DNA from: Parvularcula maris
Lineage (GTDB): Bacteria; Pseudomonadota; Alphaproteobacteria; Caulobacterales; Parvularculaceae
NCBI RefSeq assembly: GCF_024505085.1
Contig: NZ_JANIBC010000005.1
Coordinates: 1-64,000, forward strand
Direction: 5' to 3'
Length of the DNA stretch: 64,000 nt
Positions 48,519 to 50,638 of this stretch are shown here, piece after piece. Under the pieces are notes generated by a model, which did no database searches, was not told where the DNA came from, and worked only from the letters and a program-made list of their open reading frames with translations. Numbering within the stretch: the stretch's first letter is position 1; each line of letters opens with the position of its first letter. A program made the position numbers and the translations under genes.

Positions 48519-48809
48519 GTGGACAAGCTCATGGACGACAAGTCCGTCGAAGATTTCTGGCTCTCGGGCCTCGTGATCGGCAACCGCATGTGGCGCCTCT
48601 CGATGGGCGACGCCGCCGCGGGCAAGGAGGCCCAGCGCATGGTCAGCGAGAAGGTCGCCGCCGCCGCCCAGGGCTATCTCGACCTCTCCATGGGCCTGAT
48701 GACCGGCGACAAGAAGAGCTGGGAAGACCCCTACGGCACCTTTGCCAAGGCGGGCCGGAAGACCCTGCGCAGCAATGCGAGAAGGCTGGCGGGGTATCGC
48801 GGGCGGTAG
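48519..48809 (+). CDS. Small helical protein of unknown function
   Basis: The 96-residue protein is Ala-, Met- and Lys-rich, predicted mostly helical (DKSVEDFWLSGLVIGNRMWRL, EAQRMVSEKVAAAAQGYLDLSMGLM), with a basic tail (KAGRKTLRSNARRLAGYRGR). It loosely recalls phasin-like or DUF amphipathic helix proteins, but there is no firm match. It diverges from surE; the spacer is 126 bases. Confidence 0.6.
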   Translation: MDKLMDDKSVEDFWLSGLVIGNRMWRLSMGDAAAGKEAQRMVSEKVAAAAQGYLDLSMGLMTGDKKSWEDPYGTFAKAGRKTLRSNARRLAGYRGR

Positions 48810-49027: not shown

Positions 49028-50638
49028 CTACCCCCGCTCGATCACGTCCTTGCCCATCAGCGGCTTCAGCACGTCGGGCACGGCGATCGAGCCGTCTGGC
49101 TGCTGATAGTTCTCGAGCACCGCGACCATGGTGCGGCCCACCGCCAATCCCGAGCCGTTCAGCGTATGGACGAACTGCGGCTTCTTCTCGCCTTCCCTGC
49201 GGAAGCGGGCGTTCATGCGGCGGGCCTGGAAGGCTCTCGTGTTCGAGCAAGAGCTGATCTCCCGGTACTGCCCCTGGCCGGGCAGATGCACCTCGATGTC
49301 GTAGGTTCTGGCCGCGCCGAAGCCCGTATCGCCGGTGCAGAGCAGCATGGTGCGGTAGGGCAGATCGAGGCGTTTCAGCACCTCCTCCGCACACCCCGTC
49401 ATGCGCTCATGCTCCTCGTCCGACTTCTCGGGGGTCGTGATCGAGACCAGCTCCACCTTGGAGAACTGGTGCATACGGATCATCCCCCGTGTGTCCCGGC
49501 CAGCCGAGCCAGCCTCGGCCCGGAAGCACTGGGTCCAGGCGGTCATCCGCTTAGGCAGCTCCTCCTCGGACAGGATGCTCTCGCGCACGAGGTTAGTGAG
49601 GGTGACCTCGGCAGTGGGGGTGAGGTAGAAATGATTAGTTCTCTCGGTCCATTTTTCTGGTGCAATCTCACGATACTTCGACACCGCCTTGGCTCGAGAT
49701 TTGGCGAACTGGACTTCTGACATAAAAATATTAGCAAACGCCTTTTCCGAATCAAACTCGTATTCGAGAAGCTTACCGGCATCTTCTTCTGTGAACTTAC
49801 CCCCTTGCGTTACACGCTCATAAATCTCGTCGACAACTTTCGTATCGTCTTCCGTTATATTAGAGTTATCGACGATAGCTTGAAAGGTAAGCAAGTCCTT
49901 CTGCTTGATAGCTGCGGTCAAGGCTTTCAGTACCGTTTGCTCAGCGACGTGGGCTGATCGCAAAAGCCAATCTGACGCCTCAAACAAGTCCTCACCAAAC
50001 TTCGGAAGCTGTCCAGTGCCAACCAGTGACTCCGGATTAGTCAAAACCGGCGGCAGCACCTCCTCATAGCCGAACTCCTCCGTATGCAGGTTCAGCATGA
50101 AGGTGGCGAGGGCCCGCTCCAGCTTGGCGAGGTCCTTCTTCAGCACCACGAAGCGGCTGCCGGAGATCTTGGCCGCCGCCTCGAAGTCCATCATGCGTAA
50201 GGATTCGCCGAGGTCCACATGGTCGCGCGCCGCCTCAATCTCGCGCGGCGTGCCCCAGCTCTTCAGCTCCTTATTGTCCGCCTCGTCTGCGCCCTCGGGC
50301 ACGTCGTCATCCATGATATTGGGGATGGGCAGCAGCTCCTCGCGTAGCTGGGCGGCCAGCTCACGCTCGCGCTCCTCCAGCTCCTTCACGCGGGCTTTCA
50401 GCGCGCCGACCTCCTCTAAGGCGGCCTGCGCTGCGGCCTCGTCGCCCTTGCCCTTGGCCATGCCGATCTTCTTGGAGACCTGTTTTTGCTCCGCCTGCGC
50501 ATCGTTCATCGCCTTGACGGTGGCCGCGCGCTCCTCGTCCAGCGCGACGAGGGAAGCCGAGCGCATCTCCGCCCCCCGGCGCTCCATGGCGCGGTCGAAG
50601 GCGGCCTGGTTCTCCTTGATCCAGCGGATGTCGTGCAT
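49028..50638 (-). CDS. serS: Serine-tRNA ligase with a large internal insertion
   Basis: SerRS charges tRNA-Ser. The 536-residue protein has the N-terminal helical arm ([22 protein letters not shown] and a coiled coil to about 105) and the class II catalytic domain: motif 2 ([21 protein letters not shown]) and motif 3 ([20 protein letters not shown]). The family is usually about 430 residues. Between [11 protein letters not shown] (209-219) and [14 protein letters not shown] (337-350) it has about 115 residues where most SerRS have about 15. That block (49631-49978) is visibly AT-richer than the rest, while motifs on both sides are intact. I chose the ATG at 50638, with AAGGAG upstream. The enzyme should be active; the role of the insert is unknown. 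Confidence 0.95.

Follow-up and report, generated by a model that had tools for sequence, protein, structure and literature searches.

A hypervariable in-frame insertion site in the seryl-tRNA synthetase of Parvularcula maris and other Alphaproteobacteria

The seryl-tRNA synthetase (SerRS) of Parvularcula maris contains a long, AT-rich block of residues within its catalytic domain, and this locus raises the question of what such a block is and how it came to reside there. The window analyzed here (the whole stretch of DNA that was studied) comprises 64,000 nucleotides, positions 1 to 64,000 of contig NZ_JANIBC010000005.1. The following features are relevant:

49028..50638, minus strand: serS, encoding a seryl-tRNA synthetase of 536 aa (identified with TIGR00414 at 491.5 bits and a PF00587 search of the genome)
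49604..49618, minus strand: PTAEV, residues 341-345, a conserved SerRS segment just 3' of the insert and the putative 3' exchange boundary
49625..49981, minus strand: the variable insert of 119 aa (residues 220-338), which replaces a 6-7 residue loop of the nearest relatives
49982..50047, minus strand: the 5' flank of the insert (codons -22 to -1), presumed to have been exchanged with it, with a conserved protein sequence and foreign-looking codons (GC3 0.45-0.55)

The serS product exceeds the TIGR00414 cut-off of 301.65 bits and therefore qualifies as a bacterial SerRS; it is the sole SerRS among the PF00587 matches of the 3.19-Mb genome. A first-pass annotation made from the sequence had proposed that this protein carries an extra in-frame block in its catalytic domain, and comparison with relatives bears this out. 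The insert is bounded by LPKFGEDLF and LTPTAEV, and at the same site Parvularcula genus-mates have a loop such as KTTDGRY. Residues P341, T342, E344 and V345, on the far side of the insert, are invariant across 26 SerRS. The GC content is 0.46 in the insert and 0.65 in the SerRS body (with a sliding minimum of 0.42), and GC3 is about 0.49-0.50 and 0.88, respectively. The suggestion that the AT-rich stretch extends into conserved codons as far as position 50047 proved exact: along serS, GC3 is 0.88-0.97 upstream of the flank, drops to the flank values listed above, and is 0.80 after the insert.

The insert is unlikely to be the product of sequencing error, because its reading frame is uninterrupted and in-frame inserts of 20 or more residues occur at this site in 147 further unique SerRS. 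For the same reason it is not a private oddity of this genome. Neither the insert nor the whole protein matched a Hint/intein or homing endonuclease domain in Pfam or NCBIfam, in agreement with the earlier view that the block is not an intein. The database search of the insert alone that had been recommended gave no other significant family match in Pfam or NCBIfam and no credible match among phages (best E-value: 5), plasmids, PDB entries or viral contigs; in its own genome, nothing outside serS was matched and the insert is present in a single copy. A structural search with the model returned SerRS entries and probed the insert itself little. A 578-kb IMG/VR contig, which is either a phage or a misclassified chromosome, encodes an apparently insert-free SerRS (L334:4001-5272, 1272 bases; 60% identity with the window SerRS in the best segment).

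At one fixed position before PTAEV, the SerRS of the order Caulobacterales and of some other alphaproteobacteria have either a 6-7 residue loop or an in-frame insert. This was determined using even draws of genomes from the phylum and below (completeness floors of 90 or 95%, rows counted by eye), in which inserts shorter than roughly 35 residues may leave the profile match whole and so escape detection. Of the 298 genomes drawn from the order, 97 had a SerRS split into two profile matches (insert-type), with G191 and G277 left out of this count as ambiguous. Ninety-four of the 97 were fetched. At the site, 92 of them have loops of 20 residues or more; of the remaining two, that of G213 is frame-broken and that of G227 sits at the end of a contig. 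In the draw of 389 genomes of the class (382 outside the order), the 21 with depressed scores among these 382 were re-examined. In fourteen of these SerRS the two halves lie in a single long frame (the loop was parsed for 13), while the other seven are contig or frame breaks, one of them (G318) with an insert on one contig end. In the draw of 396 genomes of the phylum, split SerRS were counted by eye in 7/20 genomes of the order and 13/148 of the class outside the order; outside the class there was none among the 226 genomes that gave a match (a partial one for G862). Four of the 13 class SerRS were looked at, giving three confirmed inserts and one contig split (G696). As a control, 147 of the 150 genomes of the order that were searched for ThrRS gave a single match above its cut-off, the remaining three being G023 (at contig ends), G129 and G159. 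The same insert in all alphaproteobacterial SerRS, with host-like composition, would have argued against a recombined segment; it was looked for, and this is not the pattern found. The locus is a recurrent hypervariable site, which no single sequence could have revealed.

Two loci encountered in these surveys are irregular. One is in a single-contig genome (L146 of G213, C1:1046343-1048443), where an A4-family insert is present but the frame is interrupted between it and the N-terminal half, through either sequencing error or a real break. The other (L306, C203) is in an assembly with two SerRS (G751), one with a 25-residue insert and a C-terminal half 91% identical to that of Rhodopseudomonas sp. 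AAP120, and contamination is likely.

A set of 281 unique SerRS, enriched for insert carriers, was assembled, of which 148 have inserts; 14 loci were left out by the locus parsing, including the insert-bearing L289 (G436), the frame-broken L146 and the contig-end L193 (G227). When 273 SerRS bodies from this carrier-enriched sample are placed on a tree, built from serS itself, presence or absence of an insert changes at least 41 times (82-101 times with shuffled labels), and at least 25 changes occur among 175 SerRS within the order. The inserts are 25-122 residues in length (median 63, 147 measured). At E<1e-3, a threshold at which shuffled queries gave 0 matches, the 148 inserts form 98 families, 84 of them singletons; phmmer clustering gave 96. 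The count drops to 78 at E<0.1 (with 15 matches from shuffled queries), and deeper kinships among the inserts are therefore possible. When 114 inserts were scanned against Pfam, PHROGs, PADLOC and NCBIfam, there was no family match beyond chance level, including matches to phage, defence, nuclease or recombinase families. The best PADLOC E-value, 0.0026, is at chance level, and absence from PADLOC is no proof against a defence role. The scan included one weak DUF4145 match (E-value: 0.0082). By eye, a stretch in the insert of an uncultured Caulobacteraceae SerRS (L197:2219-2470), to which this match is not tied, is HEPN-motif-like. Cysteine depletion was considered as a hallmark of the inserts (8 Cys in 9729 residues) and rejected, the SerRS arm being equally poor.

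Inserts on nearly identical enzymes are for the most part unrelated. For 36 insert-bearing pairs whose bodies share 95% identity or more, the inserts are unrelated in 31 (E>0.1) and similar in five (E<1e-3), and at a body identity of at least 90% the numbers are 71 and 17 of 88. Unrelated alleles on near-identical carriers are what a frequency-dependent recognition cassette would present. For example, each of three Asticcacaulis SerRS has an insert of its own although their bodies are 95-98% identical, and in eight Rhodopseudomonas SerRS (bodies 87-97% identical) the inserts are unrelated in all 28 pairs. Because third-position divergence between the bodies in such pairs is only about 0.2 outside the flank, far from saturation, drift cannot have erased the similarity of the inserts. 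These sequence comparisons indicate that the inserts have very probably been replaced whole by unrelated ones and have not slowly diverged. A different pattern is observed in g22, where one 19-member insert family is present in 14 of the 16 SerRS fetched (L113 and L120 carry other inserts), which comes close to a lineage-specific signature insertion. This persistence counts against the reading of the inserts as exchangeable cassettes, since fast turnover everywhere would not predict it. For the window insert, no such conservation of a homologous insert within the lineage was found, the nine Parvularcula genus-mates examined being without it.

The DNA next to the inserts appears to have been exchanged as well. 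In 50 pairs with different inserts (bodies ≥93% identical), codons -20 to -1 have a synonymous divergence of 0.36-0.52, compared to 0.14-0.27 elsewhere and 0.15 over the first three codons 3' of the insert; at PTAEV it is at the background level. Over the same 20 codons, divergence is 0.16-0.25 in 63 insert-free pairs and 0.26-0.35 in 11 same-insert pairs that are more diverged overall, all of these pairs being non-independent. It is therefore likely that, on average, a 5' flank of about 20 codons is co-exchanged in different-insert pairs. The recombined segment at which the first-pass annotation had hinted is supported, more strongly than a single sequence would allow, by same-site inserts swapped whole between near-identical SerRS, on average together with this flank. 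The asymmetry was not clear in 14 pairs with and without an insert (90% body identity), in which divergence within 20 codons is 0.43-0.44 upstream and 0.41-0.43 downstream (0.21-0.46 elsewhere). Several of 13 single comparisons of this type differ downstream too. Between L056 and L034, about 20 codons are recoded upstream and the first five codons downstream are unchanged; L117 and L067 show little change on either flank; and L035 compared with L053, L166 and L168 with L076, and L006 with L016 differ downstream as well. Where distant hosts carry homologous inserts, the flanking DNA shows no added similarity, so that no pair of donor and recipient came to light. In G318 (100 contigs), which is probably a metagenome bin, two contig ends (L274 on C9 and L301 on C74) are identical over 66 bases and then part at the flank, one leading to an insert-free loop and the other to a recoded flank followed by an insert. 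The identity favours two alleles of one population, co-binning of two organisms being the other possibility.

By their composition, the inserts are coding sequence. For 129 inserts on GC-rich bodies, GC1, GC2 and GC3 are 0.64, 0.41 and 0.59, compared to 0.74, 0.42 and 0.82 for the bodies, and GC3 is lower than that of the body in 135/148 inserts (L292 was wrongly bounded in this count). In the 19-member family (171 pairs), omega is 0.137 for the insert and 0.162 for the body, with dS near saturation. Substitution ratios of this size show that this one old insert family is under purifying selection. Of eight further pairs, four have a measurable dS in the insert; omega is 0.03-0.20, and in three of the four it is approximately twice that of the body. 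Such low values within families, which mean that the inserts diversify through replacement rather than through point change, weigh against the reading of the inserts as exchangeable cassettes. The 19-member family has a roughly host-like GC3 which, together with its retention in 14 of 16 g22 SerRS, suggests that inserts ameliorate and stay once they have settled. The proposal that the block is largely helical has support of low to modest confidence from AlphaFold models: the window insert is predicted to be mostly helical at low confidence (block pLDDT 52-69 for residues 221-290 and <50 for residues 294-335), and the g22-type insert of L257 is predicted to form two helices (232-249 and 256-266; block pLDDT 65-84). 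Both models are silent on contact partners.

The genes around serS were compared to those of two insert-free relatives. The order UDG, NYN, folK, serS, 96-aa ORF, surE (named by eye) is the same in P. lutaonensis and P. mediterranea, so a partner or cargo gene beside serS did not arrive with the window insert. The 96-aa ORF (48519-48809, plus strand) is phasin-like by eye, and its counterparts in these two species are 60-61% identical.

Several explanations can be considered for these observations. If the site were a neutral, tolerated loop that accepts any in-frame DNA, with inserts gained, lost and drifting without function, then the wide range of lengths and the want of family matches would be expected, and in PMC10817482 a catalytic-domain insertion of human SerRS is described as having a negligible role in aminoacylation. 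Against this, omega in the 19-member family is as low as in the body and is also low in the four further pairs, the inserts are coding-like with helical predictions, and with a third-position divergence of only about 0.2 between near-identical bodies, drift would not have had the time to erase the similarity of their inserts. The absence of split SerRS from 226 genomes outside the class and of a comparable signal in ThrRS also argue against neutrality, which we consider improbable. A mobile in-frame DNA element targeting this site, of the rickettsial palindromic or homing type, would account for the single fixed site with sporadic presence, the co-exchanged flank with, on average, one fixed edge, and the lowered GC3 of most inserts. 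Rickettsial palindromic elements are in-frame insertions in alphaproteobacterial protein genes, which the SerRS inserts resemble in this respect, but these elements are repeated, palindromic and found at many sites, whereas the SerRS inserts occupy one site and are unrelated in sequence. No shared repeat, palindromic ends or additional sites were found for the window insert, which is single in its genome; no inverted repeats were found around it, and the one weak 11-nt direct repeat present is probably due to chance. Moreover, the 98 families have no common sequence, nuclease and recombinase matches were not above chance level, and a profile of the A4 family (eight rows) was searched against 398 genomes of the order. 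Among the rows listed, with no more than 13 scored candidates for any genome, this profile matched serS insert regions in nine genomes, of which eight had supplied the training rows, and a single marginal sequence elsewhere (G274, E-value: 4.5e-4). A mobile element is thus a quite unlikely source of the inserts.

Adaptation of the enzyme itself is another possibility, with each insert tuning tRNA(Ser) or tRNA(Sec) binding, stability or partner docking in a species-specific manner. The insert directly precedes PTAEV, one family has been kept in nearly all g22 SerRS, and insertions of eukaryotic SerRS engage in other contacts according to PMC10817482. However, tRNA(Ser) and partner proteins should hardly differ between enzymes with bodies 95-98% identical, yet the inserts of such enzymes are mostly unrelated, and many close relatives manage without any insert. 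On balance we regard this explanation as unlikely. SerRS is the target of albomycins, and resistance to a small-molecule inhibitor of this kind had been suggested for the window insert. The site is near the active site, and these natural antibiotics are discussed together with SerRS in the literature, but a single drug class cannot account for nearly 100 unrelated inserts at one site, which makes inhibitor resistance highly improbable.

The explanation that we put forward is that the insert is a variable cassette on an otherwise conserved essential enzyme, swapped by recombination and serving to shield the enzyme or to recognize something; as a whole, this statement is plausible while falling somewhat short of probable. 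Replacement would take place through recombination of short tracts with serS alleles from other bacteria, frequently of lower GC, and these alleles could be delivered by transformation, gene transfer agents or phage. More tentatively, the insert may form a helical module that faces outward and makes contact with, or fends off, a factor that is neither serine nor tRNA, for which a proteinaceous SerRS antagonist (a phage factor or a competitor toxin) would be the most likely target. Rare insert alleles might then be favoured and swapped, as on other frequency-dependent recognition surfaces. A shielding function, considered by itself and judging from sequence patterns, is possible but less than probable. 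More doubtful is the broader idea that alphaproteobacterial SerRS possesses a true variable region, whose inserts would be immunity or decoy alleles against diverse intracellular protein antagonists, traded across species. Against the cassette explanation, no antagonist or partner was identified, and the 114 inserts scanned gave no phage or defence family match beyond chance level.

Other systems share some of these characteristics. Human cytosolic SerRS has an insertion (insertion II) that we take to be at the same alignment position as the bacterial site. According to PMC10817482, this insertion (G254-N261) is, like the window insert, in the catalytic domain near the active site, and differs in being 8 residues long and specific to higher eukaryotes. 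In E. coli SerRS, the loop at the alignment position of the insert is 8 residues longer than the profile, which is short compared to the inserts; to our knowledge, it does not behave as an exchangeable block. CYT-18, the fungal mitochondrial TyrRS, has insertions that confer a new binding function on a synthetase, but these are lineage-fixed while the SerRS inserts are swapped. HsdS target-recognition domains and polymorphic-toxin tips combine a constant frame with exchangeable, often low-GC variable parts, but they belong to restriction or secreted systems whereas SerRS is an essential cytosolic enzyme. Targets of diversity-generating retroelements acquire adenine-directed changes, in contrast to the SerRS inserts, which differ as whole sequences and not by point changes. 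A search of the open-access PMC literature (titles and abstract starts, and thus weak evidence of absence) found no description of swapped SerRS inserts. No other essential cytosolic enzyme is known to us to carry a variable insert that can be exchanged and, judging from this knowledge and the literature search, we consider it to be a new kind of variation.

These results have practical consequences for work on these bacteria. Phylogeny or typing based on serS calls for caution, and insert exchange may explain assembly breaks at this locus. The inserts can be removed or exchanged, and could be used as bait for whatever they recognize. Core translation enzymes are regarded as slow-evolving and essentially non-polymorphic. 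In many genera of one bacterial class, unrelated modules are exchanged at a single SerRS site at a higher rate than that at which the enzyme around it accumulates substitutions. Genes engaged in an arms race would be expected to behave in this way, and housekeeping enzymes would not; this exchange implies strong, unexplained selection on SerRS. If the broader idea of immunity or decoy alleles is true, an enzyme at the core of translation would have come to serve as a polymorphic immune surface.
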